Shown in pieces: positions 3,251 to 46,740 of a stretch of 64,000 nt of DNA. Location: positions 28,323 through 92,322 of the forward strand of contig JAGBDR010000035.1 in assembly GCA_017937385.1 (NCBI GenBank), written 5' to 3'. Source of the stretch: Parabacteroides sp. (GTDB lineage: Bacteria > Bacteroidota > Bacteroidia > Bacteroidales > Tannerellaceae). A program made the position numbers and the translations under genes. Every line of letters starts with the position of its first letter. The stretch's first letter is position 1. The notes beneath the pieces were generated by a model. It worked only from the letters and a program-made list of their open reading frames with translations. It was not told the DNA's origin and ran no database searches.

Positions 3251-3318
3251 ATTTATGATTTATAATTTATGATTTATGCGCACAGAAAATCATAAATCAT
3301 AAATTATAAATCATAAAT
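3251..3318. terminator. Perfect 28-bp AT-rich inverted repeat, probable terminator
   Basis: Arms 3251-3278 and 3291-3318 are exactly complementary over 28 bases with a 12-base loop. Each arm is itself built from repeats of atttatgattt. It starts 6 bases after the stop of the minus-strand receptor gene, so it most likely ends that transcript. Confidence 0.65.
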
Positions 3319-8004: not shown

Positions 8005-8064
8005 TTTCATGGGCATCCGACAAAAATTTCATGGGCATGGAACTTTTGTCGGATGCCCATGAAA
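8005..8064. terminator. Perfect 21-bp hairpin between sigma and anti-sigma genes
   Basis: Arms 8005-8025 and 8044-8064 are exactly complementary over 21 bases. The 18-base loop contains another copy of catgggcat. The hairpin starts 15 bases after the sigma-factor stop and lies 88 bases before the fecR start. It may terminate or attenuate the sigma transcript, or it may be a GGGCAT-type dispersed repeat. Confidence 0.6.
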
Positions 8065-34390: not shown

Positions 34391-37300
34391 TTATTTTACA
34401 ATAGCTTTCACAGCCTCTTCGCCTTCAACAGCCACTACAACTACACCCTGAGGAACAGCGATCGTTGCGTTGTCAGAAGCGATAACGGTGTTAGCCACTA
34501 CCTGACCGAGAATGTTAGAGATAACAACCTTCTTGCCGGCAGCACCAGCGATCGTTACGTTGCCTTCACCAGCGATAACGGCTACTTCAGAAGTAGCGAT
34601 ACCTTCGTTGGCTGTCGGAGTAGTACAACGTTCGTCGATATTCCACCACTCAGCGTTCAAGATACCTTCTGATGCAGAGTTGAAACGAGCAATTACAGGT
34701 ACACCATTCTGAACTTTAATAGCTCTGTATTCATTTGCATTTTCAGTAGCGGTATAAGTATCATTGTGCAAGCTCCATTCACTGTCATGGTTTTCGATGA
34801 TGAAGTCACGAGTGTCCTTATCATCTACCAGACGGAACATGAATTTATAATTTGCGTAGTCTTGAGTAAATGCTTTCGTTGCATTGTTACCATTACGATC
34901 TTTTACGTTCATTACATAAACGTAATCGTTTTCGTTCGGAGTAACCGTATTTTCAACAGCAGCACGAGCCCATTCAATTGCTTTCAAGTAATCCTTATGA
35001 CCTTCTTTTGTCAACGGATATTCACCATTCTTGAATATGATCAATGTATCACCTGTGTGCATTGCATGTACGAATGCCAAACGGGTGTATTGTCTTTCCC
35101 ACTGATAGTCTGCACCATTCACAGCATTTTTCAAAGAGTCCTGAGCGTTGATCAGATAACGGCCCCAAACCTGAGCAGGAACATCCAACAGGTGTTCTTC
35201 CTTACAATCGGCATTGAATCCGTGGATCGGGCAATATTTACCTTCTTTGATGATTTCAGTGCCAACAGCCAACATATACTGAGGACGATACGGATTGCGT
35301 ACATCTGCCGTATCTACATAGATGGCCGTGCTATCATCGAACTGGCCGCCTTGATAACGAACACCCAAGTAATTGATACCCTTACCAGCTTCATTAAACT
35401 GAGATTGGTTAGCCGATTCGAACAAATACTGTTTGTCAGCAATACGAGCACGGAAGAAGTTTGCGACACACGGAGCAGAGAACGGTTCTACGCCTTCTGC
35501 AACGGCTGTTGTTTCATTCCCCTTCAATTCACGATAGATGATAGATTCATCATAACCTACATGGAATGTTGCTACACGTTCTTCGCTGCAAACACCTTCG
35601 ATAGAGAACTTCAATGAACCATCGCGAACACCTACACGATCACCATTAGCAAAATCAACTAATGCATGATAACAGAGCGTATCACCTTCTTCAGTCACAA
35701 TCTGGTTGTTTTCTTTCAGATAGAACTTAACGGCTTCATTTGCATTAGCAGTTACCTTGTATGTATTCTCATTTGCTGCATCACGGGCAATCCACTTAGA
35801 ATCGTTCACCAGCTTGTTGCCATCATAAACTTTGATTGTATAAGAACGACGATACAATTGAGGAGCAACAGAACCTTCGTAACCATATTTAGCATCAACA
35901 GACGGAACCAACTGGAAGGTTGCTTTATCACCCTTGACATCAACACGTACAGTTGTATCATTAGCCGTAGGAGCTACATTTACAAAGTTACCAATCTGAA
36001 TACCGCTGAAGTAATCCAAAGTCATGCGGTTCAATTTGAACTGATTTTCATCTTCCGGTTTGTAGTAACCCAGATATGAGTCTGTCAAGACACCGGCAAG
36101 AGGTTTAACATCTGCAGCCAATGCGTATGACAAGGTGTCACCACCTGCAATTCCGAACGGAGCAAAAATCTTCTTATCACCGCCCTTGAACAACTGAACA
36201 TTTTCATATTTAATGCCCGGGAATTCACGGTTGTAGATACTTACAGTCTGCTGTCCAGCCACACCCGGATTCTGTTTAACAACCCATTGCGTACGCGGCA
36301 TGTGACCGAAGTCCTGAGCTACGCCATATAACTGAGTTGTTTCTTCTGCTTCGTAATCATTTCCATTGTTACCACAGAACTTAGCTACATAATATTTGCC
36401 AGCATCATACTTTCTTGAAGCCAATCCTGTTGACAGGTTGAAGAAATATACGCCGGAAGGCAAAGTAGTCAGTTCATACATTGAAGAAGCACCTGCAGAG
36501 ATACGAGTGTTGATCGTATTTGCCGGATTCATCAGACGATCATATTCTGAGTTTCCGATTGTCAACTCACGATGTGAAGTATTGGCTAATACAGCAATCT
36601 TAACCAAGTTACGTTCTGCCGGATTTGAATTAGCCTCTAATTTACCATCTTTAGATTTCATTGTCGGTGCCGGTACCATTGATTCTGGTAGACTCAAATC
36701 TTTCCAAACAGAAGTAGCCTCTACACCATCAGCCAATGTAGCAAAACCTGCAGAACGAATTACGATCGAATCCTGAGCCGGATACCAAACAAACTGGAAA
36801 TTAAAACGTCCATTAATATCCTCACGAGTCCAACTGATAGGGCTCATAGATTCACCATTAGACTTAGTCTTCAAATCTACGAAAGTCTTATCATCTGAAA
36901 GTTTTAAATATTTTTGTCCAGCATTCGTAGTCATATAAGCCGTATCGACCATTACATATTTACCAGCATCTGTTTTCAAAGATACCCAACCTTGAGCATC
37001 CCATTTTGCCCGAACACTTTCCTTTTCTTTATTTGCAGCAACCAATTTACCAGCAACATCTAATGATGCTATTTTTGAATCCAAAGAAGCAAGAGCGTCA
37101 CGTACTTCTACGATATATCCCATAACTTCTTTCATACCATTTGCGCTATTCCTAAAATTAGGCATTTCACTCTTGATATAGGAAATAACTATCGGTTTAA
37201 TGGCTTTTGAAGCTTCAGCTGTTGGTTCTACAGCTTGTACAGCTGCTAAAACTTTGTCATACTCAGTTTCAGTACCTTTAGCATTTACGAAAGCCTTTAA

Positions 37301-38308
37301 TGCTGCATATATAGCATCATCTTTATAAGTACTTCTTAAGGCTTTAATTGCCTTTACAAAAGCTTCTCGATGCAAAGAAATTTCATAAGCATTCAATTTT
37401 TCATACCAATTATTATGGTGCCCCAATGCATCTTCTGCATTATCAGCATCAGTTGTAGTATTTGAACCTCCAGGTTCCGGTAACTCCCATTTGAAATTGC
37501 GGAACGGATAACCAACGGCAGATTCAGCCCGCAACGGTTGTGTAAACACGTTCTTATATTGGTTATTCTTTACATCCGGAGTAAAAGTCAAGTTCAACTT
37601 ACCATTAACTGCATCACCTTTCCACAGCATGGAATTCAAATCGTCTGCACCCAATACAATAGCTGCAGGGGAAGCAGGTTTAATTTTTAACAAATTTGAA
37701 GAAGAAGACAAATCCGTTGGTAAATTTTTAAGTGCATACTTTTCAGCACCTACTTTATCGGAACTTGCTGTCAATACCAACACCGAGTCACGATTATTGC
37801 CAAAAGCAGCAGAAAGTGTAGTTTCTGTAAATTTTTTGCTAACAGGATCCGGAGCTGGAATCCATTTCCAAACAGCAACATCACCACCTACCGTAATATT
37901 ACTTTTCGGAGTTGCTATATTTCCAGCAGTTTCCGAATGTTTTACGACTGCAGATCCTTGTGAATTAATAGCCAATTGTAAACCGGAAGCATAGTTTACA
38001 AACACATAAGAATAACCACCCTCTGCATTCTCTTGAGACATGATTGTCCATAAAGTAGAGCGAAGTTCATCTTTACTATCAGTAGCAGCCTTTACTACCT
38101 TCAAATAGTATTGACCACTTTTGTCATTACGGAACATACCTAACACATCACCAGCCGTACGTGTTTCCAGCTGATAATAAGTTCCACTTTTTACAAGTTC
38201 CGCTGCCGTAGGATTCTTTGTAAACTTAGCATAGTTAGCCGCATTTACCGTTCCCATAGCACCTACCAGCAGGACGCTGGCTACAAGCGTAGAAAACTTT
38301 TTGTTCAT
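34391..38308 (-). CDS. Large secreted S-layer-like surface protein, DUF6383-type C-terminus (phase-variable locus 1)
   Basis: 1305 residues from ATG 38308; the longer frame to 38389 only adds AT-rich leader. A signal peptide (MNKKFSTLVASVLLVGAMGTVNA) is followed by long beta-rich repeats and a C-terminal domain, VAVIAGEGNVTIAGAAGKKV then NILGQVVANTVIASDNATI, ending VEGEEAVKAIVK. That end resembles type IX secretion sorting domains and the DUF6383 family of Parabacteroides. The paralogue at 40756 shares the signal peptide and C-terminus but little between. The promoter element upstream (38414-38615) is invertible and here points away, so the gene is predicted OFF. Confidence 0.82.
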   Translation of the reverse strand: MNKKFSTLVASVLLVGAMGTVNAANYAKFTKNPTAAELVKSGTYYQLETRTAGDVLGMFRNDKSGQYYLKVVKAATDSKDELRSTLWTIMSQENAEGGYSYVFVNYASGLQLAINSQGSAVVKHSETAGNIATPKSNITVGGDVAVWKWIPAPDPVSKKFTETTLSAAFGNNRDSVLVLTASSDKVGAEKYALKNLPTDLSSSSNLLKIKPASPAAIVLGADDLNSMLWKGDAVNGKLNLTFTPDVKNNQYKNVFTQPLRAESAVGYPFRNFKWELPEPGGSNTTTDADNAEDALGHHNNWYEKLNAYEISLHREAFVKAIKALRSTYKDDAIYAALKAFVNAKGTETEYDKVLAAVQAVEPTAEASKAIKPIVISYIKSEMPNFRNSANGMKEVMGYIVEVRDALASLDSKIASLDVAGKLVAANKEKESVRAKWDAQGWVSLKTDAGKYVMVDTAYMTTNAGQKYLKLSDDKTFVDLKTKSNGESMSPISWTREDINGRFNFQFVWYPAQDSIVIRSAGFATLADGVEATSVWKDLSLPESMVPAPTMKSKDGKLEANSNPAERNLVKIAVLANTSHRELTIGNSEYDRLMNPANTINTRISAGASSMYELTTLPSGVYFFNLSTGLASRKYDAGKYYVAKFCGNNGNDYEAEETTQLYGVAQDFGHMPRTQWVVKQNPGVAGQQTVSIYNREFPGIKYENVQLFKGGDKKIFAPFGIAGGDTLSYALAADVKPLAGVLTDSYLGYYKPEDENQFKLNRMTLDYFSGIQIGNFVNVAPTANDTTVRVDVKGDKATFQLVPSVDAKYGYEGSVAPQLYRRSYTIKVYDGNKLVNDSKWIARDAANENTYKVTANANEAVKFYLKENNQIVTEEGDTLCYHALVDFANGDRVGVRDGSLKFSIEGVCSEERVATFHVGYDESIIYRELKGNETTAVAEGVEPFSAPCVANFFRARIADKQYLFESANQSQFNEAGKGINYLGVRYQGGQFDDSTAIYVDTADVRNPYRPQYMLAVGTEIIKEGKYCPIHGFNADCKEEHLLDVPAQVWGRYLINAQDSLKNAVNGADYQWERQYTRLAFVHAMHTGDTLIIFKNGEYPLTKEGHKDYLKAIEWARAAVENTVTPNENDYVYVMNVKDRNGNNATKAFTQDYANYKFMFRLVDDKDTRDFIIENHDSEWSLHNDTYTATENANEYRAIKVQNGVPVIARFNSASEGILNAEWWNIDERCTTPTANEGIATSEVAVIAGEGNVTIAGAAGKKVVISNILGQVVANTVIASDNATIAVPQGVVVVAVEGEEAVKAIVK

Positions 38309-38413: not shown

Positions 38414-38615
38414 AAAAACGTTCGTTTTTTTTAGTCATTTTTTCAGGGCTTTCGGGAGGGTTTGTATTGGAAAGGTGGTTTTTCGTACTCGTTAAGCTAT
38501 CTGATTGATAAGAAAGAATATAGAAAAGGAAAAATTATTGGAGAAAAGGGTTGCAGGTTCAAAAAGTAGTTGTATTTTTGTGCTGTAAAAATGACGAATT
38601 AAAACGAACGTTTTT
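38414..38615. promoter_or_regulatory. Invertible promoter segment 1, OFF orientation for the surface-protein gene
   Basis: Inverted repeats at 38414-38442 and 38587-38615 (26 of 29 complementary; core aacgaacgttttt) enclose 144 bases. Inside lies one promoter, TTG at 38551-38553 and TATTTTTG at 38573-38580 with a 19-base gap, reading rightward. Start of transcription would fall at the right repeat. The surface-protein gene lies to the left, so inversion is needed to express it. The layout equals the phase-variable promoters of Bacteroides capsule loci and Parabacteroides S-layer genes. Confidence 0.82.
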
Positions 38616-38875
38616 CTTTCACTTTGCTTCCCCTCTCAAATCTTTATTATACAAACACTTACAAGGTATAAAGCCGTTCTTTCATTCTATTATATATAAT
38701 GTACGTGCGTACGTTGATACATTATCGGCAACTACCGGATAACCAATCAATTACTCTATCCAAGCCTATAACCCGATTGTTCCATGCCTATAGCACTCAC
38801 GTTTCCTGCCCATGGCACAAGTGTGCTATGCCGAGGGAATTCCTGTGCCAAGCCTATGCAATTTTTGCGGCACAC
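38616..38875. other. Non-coding flank of invertible segment 1
   Basis: The first ~138 bases (38616-38754) are about 90% identical to 45016-45155 beside segment 2, including gtacgtgcgtac. No open frame is conserved between the two. The rest (38760-38875) holds atgcc/ggcat-type inverted pieces. In the present orientation the invertible promoter reads into this stretch and then antisense to the next gene. Confidence 0.6.
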
Positions 38876-40423
38876 TCACTTCACGAGCCAGCCCGCAATA
38901 TTCCGCGTCTTGTCACTGAAGTTCACACCGATTTCAACCAACTTCCTCGGATCACTGCGGAACGGATCGGAATAGCCTTTCTCCTCTATCTGCGCCAATG
39001 CTTCTTCGGCACTGCCGTTCAGTTTGAACTCCATGACATAGATGTAATGGTCGGTCTGCAGCACCAGATCGATACGGCCACGCGAAGTGTGGTACTCCGC
39101 TTTCACATAGAAACCGGCCAGTTTGAAAACGATGAAAAGCACATTCTGGTAATGGACCTCCAAATTACGAATCAATTCATAGGGAGTATCGGCCAAAAAA
39201 CTTTGCAGACGGGAAAGAAAGGCATCGTAATCGCCTCGGCGAATTTCACGCACGAAATGTTGGATCTGAAAGGAAGACTCCACCGTGTTCACCGAAGTAT
39301 AATAAGGTAACAAATAGCGAACAAAACCCTCTTCCACCTCTTGGTTGGGAAAACCTAACGTGTAGATCTTAAATTCCGGATCATAGCCTTTAATGGTCAG
39401 ATACCCGCTTTGGTAAATCACGGGGATCGGATTACAGGAAGCGGAATCGATACTGTTCAAGACATCGGCATCTGTCTCCGTATGGGCCATGTCATACAGG
39501 TCATAATCCGTATTCTTCAGCAAATGGACCAAATAGGTAGGCGTTCCGGTCTCGAACCAATAATTGCCGAACTCCTTTTTGGCAAACGTATTGAGCAAGC
39601 TGAAAGGATTATACATTCCCATCGACTTTGCCGTGAAATGATACCCGTCATAGCGTTTCTTCAGTTCTGCACAAACGGCTTCATGCGTCATCTGTTGGGC
39701 CGCAGCCAAATCTTCCAAATCTTCTTTCAGGCAAGTCTGGATTTCCTGTTCCGTGATACCGCATATTTCCACATAACGGTCATCCATCGAAATGTCCATC
39801 AGGTTATTCAAATCACTGAAAACACTGACTTTACCGAACTTCGTCACACCGGTCAAGAGGGCGAATTTGATGAATCCGTCCATCGTCTTCAAAACGCCAT
39901 AGAAAGGCTTCAGCATATTCCGGAATTCCGCCTGCAACGTTTCGTCCTGAATGGTTTGCAGAATCGGCTTGTCATACTCGTCCACCAAGATAACGACACG
40001 TTGTCCGGTCTTTTCATACGCCCGGCGGATCACTCCGGCAAAACGCAAAGGCAATGTCGTTTCCGACGGACGAGTGCCATAGAGTTCCTCCCAACGGGAT
40101 AAAGAATCGTTCAACAGGCTATACAAACTATCCGCCCGGTCATACTGGGAGATATTCAGGTCGAGATGCAAAATCGGGTATTCCACCCAATCCTTTTCCA
40201 ACTGTTCCATCGCCAGGCCTCCGAACAGTTCTTTCTTTCCCTGGAAATAGGCTTCCAAAGTGGAGATCAAAAGACTTTTTCCAAACCGGCGCGGCCGGCT
40301 TAGGAAATAATAGCTTCCACTCTTTACCAATTGGTACACCCATGCCGTCTTGTCTATATAAACGTAACCGTCATTCCTCAACTTTTCGAATTTCTGTACG
40401 CCTATCGGATAACGTTTTGCCAT
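38876..40423 (-). CDS. AAA-ATPase-like / PD-(D/E)XK nuclease fusion protein (DUF1703 type)
   Basis: 515 residues from ATG 40423 (MAKRYPIGVQKFEKLR), chosen as the family's normal start. The N-terminal AAA-ATPase-like domain has a degenerate P-loop region SRPRRFGKSLLISTL and a Walker B-like RVVILVDEYDKPIL. The C-terminal PDDEXK_9 nuclease domain has GRIDLVLQTDHYIYVMEFKL, where D and ExK are the core residues. Many copies occur in Bacteroidales and their role is unsettled. It sits exactly between the two surface-protein cassettes. Confidence 0.88.
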   Translation of the reverse strand: MAKRYPIGVQKFEKLRNDGYVYIDKTAWVYQLVKSGSYYFLSRPRRFGKSLLISTLEAYFQGKKELFGGLAMEQLEKDWVEYPILHLDLNISQYDRADSLYSLLNDSLSRWEELYGTRPSETTLPLRFAGVIRRAYEKTGQRVVILVDEYDKPILQTIQDETLQAEFRNMLKPFYGVLKTMDGFIKFALLTGVTKFGKVSVFSDLNNLMDISMDDRYVEICGITEQEIQTCLKEDLEDLAAAQQMTHEAVCAELKKRYDGYHFTAKSMGMYNPFSLLNTFAKKEFGNYWFETGTPTYLVHLLKNTDYDLYDMAHTETDADVLNSIDSASCNPIPVIYQSGYLTIKGYDPEFKIYTLGFPNQEVEEGFVRYLLPYYTSVNTVESSFQIQHFVREIRRGDYDAFLSRLQSFLADTPYELIRNLEVHYQNVLFIVFKLAGFYVKAEYHTSRGRIDLVLQTDHYIYVMEFKLNGSAEEALAQIEEKGYSDPFRSDPRKLVEIGVNFSDKTRNIAGWLVK

Positions 40424-40520
40424 GTTCTTCCCTTGTTTTGAATTTATCACAAAAATAATCAATCTGATGAATTTTCCATCCAATGAAACACATGGGAAAT
40501 ACGAAAAACTTCTAAAAACG

Positions 40521-40755: not shown

Positions 40756-43700
40756 TTATTTTACGATCGCCTTAACAGCGTCTTCACCTTCAACAGCGAC
40801 TACGACTACACCCTGAGGAGCAGCGATAGTAGCATTGTCAGATGTGATGACTGTGTTGGCAACTGTCTGGCCCAAGATGTTTGTGATAACCACCTTCTTA
40901 CCAGCAGCACCCACAATCTGTACAGAACCGTTACCTGCGATAACTGTTACGGAAGATACTTCTATATCTTCGTTGGCTGTAGCTTCGTCTTTAGTTGTTT
41001 CGAAGTAGAAGACTCCGGACTGACCGATTCTTTCAGCAATCGTGCTTTCATTCCATTCGTGGTTACCAGCAGGAGTTTCAACTTGAGCGATTACAGGAAC
41101 ACCGTTTTCAGTCTTCACCCATGCGCCTTTAAATGCACCGATAGCATCACACTTAGATTCAAGCAAGAATGCTTCGCTATCTTCTGCCACACCGGTATTA
41201 TCGGAGTTTGTTCTACGCAAAGAGAATGTATGGTTAGTATTGACATTACCGCTAATTTTGTGACATTCCACATATTTCAAGTTTCCTTGAGCATCTGTTT
41301 CAGTCAACTTAGTCGGATCAAGTACAAATTCCGGAGCTACATATTTAGCCTTTACAGAGCCATGATTATCGATGGTCATCAAATCTTTCAAGCTGTAACC
41401 GGCTTTAACAACATATAAGTATTCTTCCGGTTCCTTTTCACCCTTGGCATTGATAATTGTATCTACCTGATGGATACCTTCCACGAAGCCCAGACGAGTG
41501 TAAGAGTTGAACTTATACAAATCAGCATTGTGCATCATGTTTGTGCTTCCCTTTACAGAGTCTTGCAAGTTAACCAAGAACCAACCAGCGGTATAACCAT
41601 TGTATGATTCGAAGTGAACCAATCCATCATCTTCAGCCTCAGCTTCGCTGTTCCAATAACCATGAACTCTTGTAGAGTGGCTACAGATATAACCGTCAGG
41701 AATAGAATCTACACGTACACCAAACAGATAACGTTGCATATTCGTTTTATCCAATTCAACCTCATCCACATAGAATGCGGCCTTATCTGCAACATCCAAG
41801 CCTTTGCTTTCAACGCCCAAGTAGTGGAATTCAGGATCGATAGACTGAATTGCCTGAACATTATTTGCATCGTTGCAATCTTCAAACAGATAGTTCTTCT
41901 GAGCCAGTTTGTTGAAGATCTTGACATTACCGTTCAACAACATATTGTAAGGAGCATTCGCCATATCAATATATTGGTTAACCGGATTACCTGCAAAATA
42001 GAATGCATCAGAAACATCGTTCGGCTGATCTTCCAAGTTATTGTCGCGGATTACACGCATTTCAGAACCTGCTTCTACAGCGGCCTTCATCCAGCCATTG
42101 TCTTTTCTCAAGTCATAGTTATCCCAATCCTTCTTTTCATCAGCGTTCAACGCCTTCGGAGCATTGATGTCAACCAATACATAGCAAGTATCTGTTACAT
42201 TTTCACCTTCCATATAAACCTGGTCAGCTTTCAGATAGAACACGCCTAACTTCTTGTAATAGTTGTCCATTTCTGAGAGCTTCATGGCCTTGTAATAGTA
42301 ACGGCCATCTTCATCACGGACAGAAGCCAGATACAATTCATCGTTATCAATCAAGTTTTGATCTTTCACCTTGATCAAATAACCTTTACGCTTCAGATCG
42401 TTGATAGTTTCTTCCGTCTTATAAGTTCCATCTGCATTGTAATCTACAATTTCATTCAAGGCTGCACCGAAATCGTTGTTAATAACACCCTTGTCTGTCG
42501 GCAATGTAGCTTCTGCAATTTCAAAAGTAGTAGCATCTCCATTTACAACAGCGATGTTCTTACCATCCACATGTTTCAAAATTGCATTTCCATACCCGTT
42601 GTTCCAGTAGATTTGGAAGTTGTTTTCAACACCGTCGTTCAAAACATCTTTATCAAACCACTTGTATCCATGAGTTTCCGTATAAGCGATTTCTTCCGGA
42701 ACTTCACGAATAGCCATTATGTCAACTACGCGCAAAGATTTTCCATTTTTAAACCAGCCGATGTTATCTTCCCAGTCATCGCTGTAAGCACCACGGCGAT
42801 TGATAAAACGATAAGCCTTGATTTCTTCGCCCTTCACGTCCTTTCCTGTTGTTTCATACAACTGGCCTTCAAATACAACACCCGGATATTCACGATTCTG
42901 GATCTGTACATAATTGTTGGCACCTTCCAGCGGACAACCTAATTGCTTAACCACCCACATAGTAGCCGGCATCAACGAATAATCCTGATTCTTAGCCTGT
43001 GTATCATACATCAATTTAGAATTCATATTGTGTACGATACTCATACCATAATGACGATTTCTCTCGTTTGCATCAGCATTTGCCAAGTCGATATAATACA
43101 AACCATCAGGAACAGTCGTACGTTTCAAATATTCAAACGGACGGTTGATTGTCAAATGGAAGAATTCTGTTGTTGTATTATCATACAATACAGTCAGAAC
43201 ATCATCTCCAGACACTTCGTCGATAGCCAAAGAAACAGTTCTTGATCCGGTCTTCGGATTTACATAATCGTTCACCAACGTATTGGCTTTTGAATAGTGC
43301 ATTGTCACGAAAGACTGTGTACATTTAGAATCTTTCCAAGGTGTTCCTTCCTCAAATGGAGCCTGGATACCGGCATTCAGCGGTTCCAACACAATGCTAT
43401 CGTTTGTCGGGAAGTAAGTAGCACGGAAATAATAACGAGCTTTCATATAGACGTTATCGTTTGCCTTCCAGTTTTTCAAATTAAATTTGACAGCAGGAGA
43501 AGCGTTGCTACTCTTCTTATAATAAATAGCCGTATCGGCCATCAGATAAGTACCCTTATGTTTTTCATCCTTGCAACCAACAACCTTGAAACTCAAGTTA
43601 AACAAAGAATCACTTACCATATTGCGGCCACCATAAGTTTCAGATGTAAATTTAGTACCATTTTTATCTGCGCGATTAATGGAGTTCAAATTCCCATTTG

Positions 43701-44709
43701 CAAGACTTGCAGCATCCTCTTCAGCCGTAAATACCAATTCATCTTCAGCAGCCTTATCATCCAGATACCCTAAGAAATTTTCAGCTCCCTTGATATTGCG
43801 GAACATCTTGAAAGAGAAGGACTCGCTATTGCCCTTATCGTCCGCATCCATACGAGTGTTAAACTGTTCAGCAGTCATGTGGAACGGGTAAGCGACAACC
43901 GGTTTGATTTCCAAAGCGTCAGCCACACCATCGATGTCATTATTACTCATTCTGACAACTTTGGCTTTTACCATTTTGCCCTTCAACAAATCAGTATTAT
44001 CAATACCCGATTTAAAGCCAAATCCATACTCTTTCAGTCTTTCACGTAAACGTAGAGCAGTACTATATTCACTTTTATCAGTATCCGGTGTTTCATACGC
44101 CAAATACATCACCTCATTGTAACGCTGATCATGGATAGAAGCATACAATTTCTTGTACTTTTTTTCATCTGTACGGTTAAAATCGTACCAAGCCCAAACT
44201 TTAGTACCATCACGCATTTCCGTAATCGAATCATTGGCAACTGTCGTATGGTCGAAAGTCAGTTCCAGATTCGTTTCCTTGTTGATCAACGTCCAATGGC
44301 CACCGGTTGCTTCATCTTCCTTACCATAAGTGAGTTTCCACAAAGAAGCATTCAGAGGAGCTTTTTCTTTAGCTACGACACGCAGATACACCTTACCGGT
44401 TTCATAGTCGCGTTCTTGGATCAATACATCAGCATACTGAGTCTCATCATTATTAACTTCCAGCTGATACCACAAATTTCCATCCACTTCACCCACAGTC
44501 TTCTTAAAAACTGCATTGTTGTAAAGAGTTTCATCTTCAACTACAGAAGTCAATGCATTCTTCCAATTTGCAGACTTCGTTCCAAACGTACGATAGGCTG
44601 CCTGCGGAGCTGAAGCCGAAGTATGCTGCCAGTTAGTCTCAGACCACTGAGCAGAAGCACTACCAGCCACCAGCGCAAGCGCCATCAGAGTAGAAAACTT
44701 TTTGTTCAT
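40756..44709 (-). CDS. Large secreted S-layer-like surface protein, DUF6383-type C-terminus (phase-variable locus 2)
   Basis: 1317 residues from ATG 44709. The signal peptide MNKKFSTLMALALVAGSASA matches its paralogue, as does the C-terminus (VIAGNGSVQIVGAAGKKVV, NILGQTVANTVITSDNATI, VEGEDAVKAIVK). The ~1,200 residues between are strongly diverged, with different beta-rich repeats such as YVQIQNREYPGVVFEG (compare VSIYNREFPGIKYEN in the other). This is what one expects for alternative surface coats. The invertible promoter upstream (44816-45015) points away here, so the gene is predicted OFF in this assembly. Confidence 0.83.
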   Translation of the reverse strand: MNKKFSTLMALALVAGSASAQWSETNWQHTSASAPQAAYRTFGTKSANWKNALTSVVEDETLYNNAVFKKTVGEVDGNLWYQLEVNNDETQYADVLIQERDYETGKVYLRVVAKEKAPLNASLWKLTYGKEDEATGGHWTLINKETNLELTFDHTTVANDSITEMRDGTKVWAWYDFNRTDEKKYKKLYASIHDQRYNEVMYLAYETPDTDKSEYSTALRLRERLKEYGFGFKSGIDNTDLLKGKMVKAKVVRMSNNDIDGVADALEIKPVVAYPFHMTAEQFNTRMDADDKGNSESFSFKMFRNIKGAENFLGYLDDKAAEDELVFTAEEDAASLANGNLNSINRADKNGTKFTSETYGGRNMVSDSLFNLSFKVVGCKDEKHKGTYLMADTAIYYKKSSNASPAVKFNLKNWKANDNVYMKARYYFRATYFPTNDSIVLEPLNAGIQAPFEEGTPWKDSKCTQSFVTMHYSKANTLVNDYVNPKTGSRTVSLAIDEVSGDDVLTVLYDNTTTEFFHLTINRPFEYLKRTTVPDGLYYIDLANADANERNRHYGMSIVHNMNSKLMYDTQAKNQDYSLMPATMWVVKQLGCPLEGANNYVQIQNREYPGVVFEGQLYETTGKDVKGEEIKAYRFINRRGAYSDDWEDNIGWFKNGKSLRVVDIMAIREVPEEIAYTETHGYKWFDKDVLNDGVENNFQIYWNNGYGNAILKHVDGKNIAVVNGDATTFEIAEATLPTDKGVINNDFGAALNEIVDYNADGTYKTEETINDLKRKGYLIKVKDQNLIDNDELYLASVRDEDGRYYYKAMKLSEMDNYYKKLGVFYLKADQVYMEGENVTDTCYVLVDINAPKALNADEKKDWDNYDLRKDNGWMKAAVEAGSEMRVIRDNNLEDQPNDVSDAFYFAGNPVNQYIDMANAPYNMLLNGNVKIFNKLAQKNYLFEDCNDANNVQAIQSIDPEFHYLGVESKGLDVADKAAFYVDEVELDKTNMQRYLFGVRVDSIPDGYICSHSTRVHGYWNSEAEAEDDGLVHFESYNGYTAGWFLVNLQDSVKGSTNMMHNADLYKFNSYTRLGFVEGIHQVDTIINAKGEKEPEEYLYVVKAGYSLKDLMTIDNHGSVKAKYVAPEFVLDPTKLTETDAQGNLKYVECHKISGNVNTNHTFSLRRTNSDNTGVAEDSEAFLLESKCDAIGAFKGAWVKTENGVPVIAQVETPAGNHEWNESTIAERIGQSGVFYFETTKDEATANEDIEVSSVTVIAGNGSVQIVGAAGKKVVITNILGQTVANTVITSDNATIAAPQGVVVVAVEGEDAVKAIVK

Positions 44710-44815
44710 AATCATTTGAATTAATATTAATAATACGTATAATAAAAGTTCAATCTGCATCACGTACGTTTCTGTGTTTTCGCCTTTTAACTAAACTTCC
44801 GCTTTTTGACGAGAG

Positions 44816-45015
44816 AAAACGTACGTTTATTTTTGTCATTTTTTCAGGGCTTTCGGGAGGGTTTGTATCGGAAAGCTGGTTTTTCGTACCCGTTAAGCTA
44901 TCTGATTGATAAGAAAGAATATAGAAAAGGAAAAAATCTTTGAGAAAAGGGTTGCAGGTTCAAAAAGTAGTTGTATTTTTGTGCTGTGAAAATGACAAAA
45001 ATAAACGTACGTTTT
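44816..45015. promoter_or_regulatory. Invertible promoter segment 2 with perfect 27-bp inverted repeats, OFF orientation
   Basis: The repeats at 44816-44842 and 44989-45015 are complementary at 27 of 27 positions (core aaacgtacgttt) and enclose 146 bases. The enclosed promoter is TTG at 44952-44954 and TATTTTTG at 44974-44981, gap 19, reading right. The enclosed sequence is ~95% the same as in segment 1, but the repeat core differs (acgtacgt here, acgttcgt there). Inversion would aim the promoter at the surface-protein start 134 bases away. A further acgtacgttt half site lies at 44763-44772. Confidence 0.88.
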
Positions 45016-45525
45016 TCTTTCACTTTTCTGTCCCTATCAATTCTTTATTATACAAGCACTTACAAGAAATAAAGCCGTTCTTTTATTCTATTATATATAA
45101 TGTACGTGCGTACATTGATACATTATCGACAACTACCGGATAACCAATCAATTACATCTTTATCTACGTTTCTCTGTCCAGGCAAGGAAAGTACTTTTCC
45201 ACAAGTGATTTTTCGACAACAAATCATTATTCACATATCAAAAACAGTTTTACAGGCCTTCTATTTTCCATTACACTTACTACTTTTCTGTAATCAGTGG
45301 CGCTGATTATAAAATCACTGTCATCAATTCTATAATCAGCGGCACTGATTATAGAATCAATGGCAGTGATTTAAGAAAACAAAGGCAGTCAAATAGGTTT
45401 ATATACCAATGGAAGAACCTTTTCACGTTTAGACAACGGACGATACAAAGATGATGAAGCACATGGGAAATACGGAAGAGAAATAGTAACTTTGCAGCCA
45501 GAATCAAACATAATCAGAATCAACA
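45016..45525. other. Non-coding leader region before the porin gene
   Basis: 45016-45155 repeats the flank seen at 38616-38754. No gene is visible in the 510 bases. The right end holds TAACTTTG near 45487, a likely promoter for the porin gene. With segment 2 in the present orientation, transcription from 44988 would run through here into that gene with no clear terminator. Confidence 0.55.
45291..45374. repeat. Two tandem 42-bp units with internal palindromes
   Basis: Units 45291-45332 and 45333-45374 begin taatcag(t/c)ggc(g/a)ctgatta and differ at about 8 positions. Each unit contains that palindrome plus an atcac/gtgat-like pair. They lie ~150 bases before the porin gene and could bind a dimeric regulator. 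Confidence 0.7.
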
Positions 45526-46740
45526 ATGAGACGACTAACGGCATTCTGGCTGTCAGCCTGCCTTTTATGTACGGTTTCCGTACAGGCACAATCTTTTATT
45601 CCTGAGCGGGACTCTTCCGATGTTTCCCTGTTTGAATATGCGACGAAGATTCCCAAGCGTAATCGGGTATTCAACTTGGATCTGGAGATGCACGCTTCTT
45701 TCAACACGTTCTTCACCGAAAAGAAACTGGATGAAGCCGCTTTCCGTTTCAACCATATCAAGCTCGAAGCGACCGGCGAAGTGAACGACCGGCTTTTCTA
45801 CTGGTATCGCCAAAACCTCAACCAGGGAAATGAAGGTATGGACCTGGAGAACCTGCCGGAATCGATCGAATATGCCCTGATCGGCTACCGCCTCAATGAC
45901 AAATTCACGGTTACTTTAGGAAAACAGGATGCCGCTTGGGGAGGATTCGAATATGACCTCGACCCGTATGCGATCTATGAATACAGCGACATGAACGAGT
46001 ACATGGATTGCTATTTCACCGGAGTCACACTCGGTTTCCAGCCGACTGCATCGCAGGAATTCCGTTTGCAGGTAACCGACAACCGCATCGGAAGCATGGA
46101 GGATACTTACGGCCTGTTGCCCGCCGGAATCGAAAAGCCCCGCGCCCCGCTTTTCTACACGTTCAACTGGAACAGCAGTTATTTAGACGAAGTGCTGAAC
46201 CTCCGCTATTCCGCCACGGCCGGCGAACAGGCCAAAGGGAAATGGATGTACATGGCATGGGCCGGACACAACGTCTGCACGGGACCGTTCGACGGCTATT
46301 TCGATGTGATGTACACGCGCGGCCCACTTGACCCGTTAGGTCTTCTGACCGAACTGGTGCCGCCCGCCTTCGAGAATACGGATGAGGCGGAGGAAGGGCC
46401 TGTCTGTTTGCGGAACGTCCAGTATCTCTCGCTCGTGGCAGAGATGAACTACCGTTTCCATCCGAAATGGAACGCCTTTGCCAAAGGAATGTACGAGACA
46501 GGATCCGTCTATAAGTCCGGGAATGAAGAAGGCGAACTCCCTAAAGGCAAATACCGCACGGCATGGGGCTTGCAGGCCGGCATCGAATTCTATCCGATGG
46601 CCGATGAAAACCTGCATATCTTCCTGACAGGAACCGCCCGCGCCTACAGCCTGACCGAAAAAGCCAAAGCGCTGGGTGCTTCCATCGAAAACACACAGCG
46701 CTTGTCGGTAGGGTTTATCTATAAGTTGCCGTTGTATTAG
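45526..46740 (+). CDS. Outer-membrane porin-like beta-barrel protein
   Basis: 404 residues with a signal peptide (MRRLTAFWLSACLLCTVSVQAQ). The body resembles the phosphate-selective porin O/P-like group: alternating beta-strands such as FNLDLEMHASFNTFF, LTVTLGKQDAAWGGFEYDLDPY-type strand near FTVTLGKQDAAWGGFE, and a last strand QRLSVGFIYKLPLY ending in an aromatic residue. It should form a channel in the outer membrane. Substrate is unknown. It is the first gene on the right of invertible segment 2 and could be reached by that promoter in the present orientation. Confidence 0.75.
   Translation: MRRLTAFWLSACLLCTVSVQAQSFIPERDSSDVSLFEYATKIPKRNRVFNLDLEMHASFNTFFTEKKLDEAAFRFNHIKLEATGEVNDRLFYWYRQNLNQGNEGMDLENLPESIEYALIGYRLNDKFTVTLGKQDAAWGGFEYDLDPYAIYEYSDMNEYMDCYFTGVTLGFQPTASQEFRLQVTDNRIGSMEDTYGLLPAGIEKPRAPLFYTFNWNSSYLDEVLNLRYSATAGEQAKGKWMYMAWAGHNVCTGPFDGYFDVMYTRGPLDPLGLLTELVPPAFENTDEAEEGPVCLRNVQYLSLVAEMNYRFHPKWNAFAKGMYETGSVYKSGNEEGELPKGKYRTAWGLQAGIEFYPMADENLHIFLTGTARAYSLTEKAKALGASIENTQRLSVGFIYKLPLY

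Follow-up and report, generated by a model that had tools for sequence, protein, structure and literature searches.

Does a pair of long inverted repeats that encloses a promoter next to the gene for a very large surface protein constitute a DNA switch and, if so, which recombinase would operate it? The locus in question lies within a 64,000-nucleotide stretch of Parabacteroides DNA (hereinafter, the window), which corresponds to positions 28323-92322 of contig C14 of the source genome (G000; 3.73 Mb in 128 contigs, 90.5% complete). A repeat scan of the window found the two arms, 44816-44842 and 44989-45015, to be complementary at 27 of 27 bases, in agreement with the initial annotation, whereas the pair that includes the inner extension, 44816-44847/44984-45015, comprises 32 nt with 94% complementarity. 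When the window was simulated 20 times with a first-order Markov model, perfect arms within 700 bp attained maximum lengths of 11-15 nt. Four further inverted repeats in the window are perfect over arms of 21-28 nt, namely 3251-3318, 599-813, 978-1043 and 8005-8064. The initial annotation had taken a long repeat around a promoter as the signature of inversion; with four other pairs in this range, arm length alone is no distinction for this pair, which is set apart by its sequence family. The invertible-promoter reading itself is nevertheless supported, because the genome encodes an Mpi-family invertase and contains like elements, because the central dinucleotides of paired sites match, and because a related locus is naturally inverted. 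The 27-mer occurs in the source genome in two exact copies, which are the two arms, and, with three mismatches, in three more copies (C14:66737, C66:16175 and C66:16358), all in like elements; a reversed control pattern had no match in this genome. The features of the locus are as follows.

40756..44709, minus strand: target gene, 1317-aa surface protein with the N-terminus MNKKFSTL and a C-terminal DUF6383 domain (PF19910)
44807..44838, unstranded: left recombination site, a 32-bp dyad TGACGAGAGAAAACG-TA-CGTTTATTTTTGTCA, with the central TA at 44822-44823
44816..44842, plus strand: left arm of the perfect 27-bp inverted repeat
44906..44919, plus strand: TTGATAAGAAAGAA motif upstream of the promoter, common to related elements
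44952..44981, plus strand: promoter inside the segment, with TTG at 44952-44954, a 19-nt gap and TATTTTTG at 44974-44981
44989..45015, minus strand: right arm of the perfect 27-bp inverted repeat
44993..45024, unstranded: right recombination site, with the central TA at 45008-45009
45526..46740, plus strand: porin O/P family gene, faced by the promoter at present

The promoter between the arms is of the Bacteroides type, as it is in the related elements, and, being located on the plus strand, is directed away from the DUF6383 gene on the minus strand, so the gene is OFF. Thus, both the orientation and the surface-protein target proposed in the initial annotation stand, as do the positions of the TTG (44952), the gap (19) and the box (44974), but the -7 box is not strictly alone: TATTTTTG is found also within each arm, at 44828-44835 on the plus strand in the left one and on the minus strand in the right one. 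The TTGATAAGAAAGAA motif is retained in gene-facing promoter copies that lack the repeats (see below) and so probably belongs to the promoter instead of acting as a recombination enhancer. The block 45286-45377, on the porin side of the element, contains nested near-palindromes made of AATCAGTGGCGCTGATT-like units and ends before the porin gene. The start of the target gene is best placed at the ATG at 44709, not at the GTG at 44763 of the ORF list. The evidence on its product consists of the DUF6383 end and an N-terminus in common with related proteins, and a PDB search with this protein gave no match up to E 0.01, that is, no solved homologue. We considered the C-terminus as a known secretion tail and rejected this assignment, given that only DUF6383 passed its cut-off. 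A gene for a SprA-type translocon is present in the genome and could provide an export route. By protein family and by precedent, the 1317-aa protein is a putative S-layer component.

The window element has relatives in the same genome. An arm search, along with dyad and repeat scans of selected stretches, identified six like pairs, on contigs C13, C14 (two), C29, C66 and C106; a lone dyad without the promoter motif lies near the end of contig C94. When the arms are aligned by their centres, each proves to lie within a 32-bp dyad composed of 15-bp half-sites around two central bases, with the consensus TGACnAAAAnAAACG-NN-CGTTTnTTTTnGTCA. The functional unit exceeds the arms and consists of the two 32-bp dyad sites, 44807-44838 and 44993-45024; the inner half of the right site is exactly the left inner half, and its outer half is degenerate. 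Several of the related elements have mismatched arms, as opposed to 27 of 27 in the window element. Five of the six pairs precede genes whose large protein products share an N-terminus and have DUF6383 at the C-terminus. The C29 pair (G000:C29:61343-61511) precedes a polysaccharide locus with a family 4 glycosyltransferase and a flippase, and there, as read from the sequence, a promoter-like box faces away. In another genome, G012, like elements precede a polysaccharide gene and a gene for a PAS histidine kinase. The second element of the window includes the following features.

34391..38308, minus strand: second DUF6383 surface-protein gene, 1305 aa
38406..38437, unstranded: left site of the second element, central TT
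38573..38580, plus strand: -7 box of the second element, which faces away from its gene (OFF)
38592..38623, unstranded: right site of the second element, central AA on the plus strand

Strand exchange by serine invertases takes place across the two bases at the centre of the site, which requires that paired sites match there. Across seven genomes, the central dinucleotide is the same in 56 of 58 site pairs, compared with 473 of 1653 comparisons between different elements; both exceptions come from G004 (which we take to be P. distasonis ATCC 8503), where the half-sites deviate from the consensus applied. In this consensus, by which the sites had been chosen, six positions were left free. At the two central free positions, mismatches occur in two of the 58 pairs each, against 28, 9, 18 and 31 pairs at the free positions 5, 10, 23 and 28, respectively; the fixed positions near the centre agree well, too (position 15: 58/58), which is partly built in by the choice of the consensus. 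The pair-wise match of the dinucleotides is what a 2-bp serine-recombinase crossover predicts. The possibility that differing dinucleotides prevent cross-talk between elements was considered and rejected: the two window elements differ (TA and TT), but several elements of G012 share TA. In G001, 6 of 22 sites are located at most 75 bp from a contig start (contigs C73, C74, C78, C80, C102 and C118), a pattern that would be expected if the coexistence of both orientations, or of near-identical elements, interrupts assembly.

A search of the source genome with the PF00239 profile returned one match, the sole serine recombinase found in this 90.5% complete genome, so a further one may be missing from the assembly. 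The protein passed NF009949, the NCBI model for the Mpi master invertase, with 315.5 bits against a cut-off of 272, and its best matches are Parabacteroides records. Mpi is presumably the protein that is called FinA in PMC3090145. The gene contains no stops, is unlinked to the invertible segment and adjoins a gene for a 948-aa fucose pyrophosphorylase/GHMP kinase, the reciprocal best matches of which, among the proteins compared, adjoin Mpi genes in G001, G004, G009, G012, G014 and G015. We infer that this Mpi is the acting enzyme.

The Hin/Gin-type serine invertases of enterobacteria and phages act at dyad sites with a 2-bp centre. The window element resembles these systems in its dyad sites with such a centre and in that the best solved relatives of the Mpi protein are named DNA-invertase (4m6f, E 1.5e-14; 3uj3, E 5.2e-14), but differs in that the invertase gene is not beside the segment and in the sequences themselves. 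In tyrosine-recombinase invertons, the recombinase gene is typically next to the segment; here, by contrast, none of the 13 PF00589 tyrosine-recombinase matches in the genome is on the window contig C14. The dyad pattern, with up to three mismatches, detected sites in 15 of the 38 genomes of the genus, compared with none of the 38 for a backwards control, whereas the exact paired-arm pattern had no matches in the named genomes and was too strict. As a predictor of such sites, the presence of Mpi was rejected as not discriminating: the protein scores above the cut-off in 13 of the 15 site-bearing genomes and in 18 of the 23 genomes without this type of site.

Evidence of actual inversion comes from a related locus. 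The elements G012:3205542 and G015:2845302 head the same locus, in which the next gene (pyruvate-formate-lyase-like) is 98.9% identical. Over 621 bp, both flanks of these elements match on the plus strand, with coordinates that coincide exactly, whereas bases 158-362, between the sites, align on the minus strand with 86% identity, so that the locus is OFF in G012 and ON in G015; in G014, the same locus is ON as well. The surface proteins encoded there have diverged (61% identity between G012 and G015; 41% over 29% of the length between G015 and G014), and therefore it is the site that is compared, not the same gene. Given that the segment is inverted between the sites while the flanks are collinear, elements of the window type apparently do turn over, with the break points at the sites. 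When the window segment is inverted in silico, its split match to the ON allele of G015 becomes a single collinear match of 341 bp, and the -7 box comes to lie 141 nt before the ATG, compared with 132 nt in G015. The inversion breakpoints and the two states were thus observed at a related locus between species, whereas the window segment was seen in one orientation: the elements closest to it by promoter and leader (G012:3128837, G014:879300 and G015:2746404) are all OFF, and there is no flipped copy of this particular locus among them.

Taken together, these observations lead us to conclude, with a probability of roughly 87%, that bases 44807-45024 comprise an Mpi-type phase switch of the 1317-aa DUF6383 gene that is now OFF. 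Under this scenario, the serine invertase of the Mpi family, the gene for which is unlinked to the segment, would bind both 32-bp dyad sites, cut at the central TA dinucleotides, rotate the DNA and rejoin it, with the result that the segment of approximately 0.2 kb would be inverted. In the present orientation, the promoter points away from the gene, leaving it OFF; inversion would place the -7 box on the minus strand, 141 nt upstream of the ATG, and the gene would be transcribed (ON). The window segment very probably flips, to judge from the comparisons above.

Other readings of the element have to be weighed. Conceivably, the switch is a two-way toggle, such that the promoter drives the porin O/P gene now and the surface-protein gene after inversion. 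The promoter does face the porin gene, approximately 545 bp away, with no terminator-like site between them detected by a scan, and at the C106 element of the same genome, the OFF promoter likewise faces a plus-strand ORF (43416-44780). However, the porin was not found beside the related elements, where G012 and G015 have a minus-strand gene and G014 has a different plus-strand gene, and the gene to the right of the second window element (38876-40483) is on the minus strand; we therefore rejected the toggle as unlikely. Less likely again is that the element is a relic, with arms that have been retained for protein binding or as a transcript hairpin in a segment that no longer inverts. The OFF state of the window element and all its closest relatives, as well as the degenerate outer half of the right site, would be compatible with such decay, but the full identity of the arms, when several related elements carry mismatches, suggests recent exchange, the Mpi gene is uninterrupted, and the related locus has been inverted between species.

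The least probable of these alternatives is that a tyrosine recombinase, and not Mpi, inverts the segment. The genome does encode 13 candidates of this kind; in P. distasonis, capsule switches beside a tyrosine-type recombinase gene have been reported (PMC8400631), and in B. thetaiotaomicron, according to PMC12118408, S-layer-like operons are preceded by invertible promoters that adjoin integrase genes. The repeats given in PMC12118408 are, however, unlike the window sites, none of the 13 candidates maps to contig C14, the one serine recombinase detected belongs to the Mpi family, and, among the free positions of the sites, the two central bases alone agree almost always, which is a 2-bp pattern. 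Accordingly, we retain the Mpi-type phase switch as the preferred reading.

How often such promoters face their genes was assessed in a census of G000, G001, G004, G009, G012, G014 and G015, which counted only DUF6383 genes with the promoter motif and covered all 14 DUF6383 matches in G004, the upstream regions of 27 of the 38 matches in G009, part of the 28 in G001 and, in G012, G014 and G015, fewer than all of the weak matches. Among the 60 repeat-flanked elements with an assigned DUF6383 gene, 58 are OFF and 2 are ON (binomial p = 3e-15 against one half, although related loci are not independent); in the source genome, all five are OFF. The census left out G014:1888055, which has no assigned gene, and two cases, G012:3128382 and G015:2745948, in which the promoter-associated motif and the -7 box lie inside DUF6383 coding sequence and were treated as chance occurrences. 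Also left out were four OFF copies without a recognised repeat (G004:2999916, G004:4267281, G009:3542233 and G015:3003678), two of which, G009:3542233 and G015:3003678, do have site pairs by dyad score. Because these four copies point away from their genes, a copy without a recognised repeat is not necessarily ON. Counted apart from the 58:2 ratio are seven promoter copies, one per genome, each of which is directed toward its DUF6383 gene and has no repeat above chance length.

G000:C13:26018-26300 (L107): repeat-less gene-facing promoter copy in the source genome
L351: repeat-less gene-facing copy in G004
L352: repeat-less gene-facing copy in G009
L289, L290, L291, L353: repeat-less gene-facing copies in the other genomes

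The gene-facing copy is syntenic in G000, G001 and G012. In G000, it adjoins the genes for the mraW methylase and a penicillin-binding protein, and the same neighbours are found in G001, G012, G014 and G015, whereas a search of the 18 kb around the copy in G004 and G009 did not find them. Among the proteins compared, the fixed-site protein of G012 is the reciprocal best match of the flippable C66 protein of G000, and the protein of the flippable element G012:3222374 is the reciprocal best match of the fixed-site proteins of G014 and G015. Since these reciprocal best matches cross between fixed and flippable sites, they suggest that protein cassettes have been exchanged between the two. With somewhat less than even odds, the genus might possess a ranked wardrobe of surface proteins, in which one DUF6383 gene per genome has a fixed promoter, the Mpi-flipped copies are biased toward OFF and are rarely ON, and cassettes move between the sites; the OFF bias could then stem from asymmetric inversion or from mutual exclusion.

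Outside the window, the source genome contains nine further DUF6383 genes that have no Mpi-type repeats and are preceded by a conserved leader of approximately 370 nt.

L109:1625-2044, L101, L102, L106, L108, L110, L111, L114, L115: leader-class loci, upstream of DUF6383 genes

The leader holds a terminator-like GC stem with a T-run and variable segments that co-vary, with double changes in 23 of the 82 consensus pairs among 25 chosen sequences; DNA matches to it are present in 15 of the 38 genus genomes, up to 19 in one genome. A search of Rfam with three of these loci gave no match above the gathering score. The leader looks like an undescribed structured RNA, perhaps an attenuator, for a second class of surface-protein genes.

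The window switch works in the manner of the Mpi-type switches and of the phase-variable S-layer genes reported in P. distasonis, and most likely is one of their number. The latter encode S-layer glycoproteins (Fletcher et al. 2007, as cited in PMC8400631) and share with the window locus the genus, the large DUF6383 (PF19910) proteins and the repeat-flanked promoter of approximately 0.2 kb. The S-layer precedent invoked in the initial annotation is borne out, with PF19910 and repeat-flanked promoters present both in the source genome and in G004. In G004, seven repeat-flanked elements precede DUF6383 genes, all OFF, but the half-sites differ: the window dyad pattern has no sites in that genome, where the arms read, for example, AAACGACTAGTCTAAACGATCG. 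By this precedent, the window protein may likewise be glycosylated and its gene switched.

In B. fragilis, Mpi is a single serine recombinase that inverts 13 regions (PMC4747536), so that one serine invertase serves many promoters there, and there is one candidate here (PMC4747536, PMC3090145). Both systems have the Bacteroides -7 box TAnnTTTG inside the segment. The best-known targets in B. fragilis, however, are capsule loci, whereas five of the six pairs here precede surface-protein genes, and the gene head to head with mpi encodes a tyrosine recombinase in that organism (PMC4747536) as opposed to the fucose pyrophosphorylase/GHMP kinase here. The invertible promoters ahead of the B. thetaiotaomicron S-layer operons have other repeat sequences (PMC12118408). 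For a defined gut community, 1837 invertons have been catalogued (PMC11892184); the word Parabacteroides does not appear in the main text of that paper, and like loci may stand in its tables. Our literature search, with many subscription papers outside its scope, found no title or opening of an abstract on the control of DUF6383 genes by Mpi in other species of Parabacteroides.

Thus, switches of this type are known already from a sister species, and the window element adds another, well-supported case. With it, the range of the Mpi-type switch grows by one Parabacteroides species, in which the 32-bp site and its central dinucleotide are now defined, one candidate invertase has been identified and genome comparisons provide evidence of inversion. 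The 58 OFF elements among 60, along with one gene-facing, repeat-less promoter in each of the seven genomes, provide a testable picture of default versus reserve surface proteins, the latter perhaps being held against phages and immunity.
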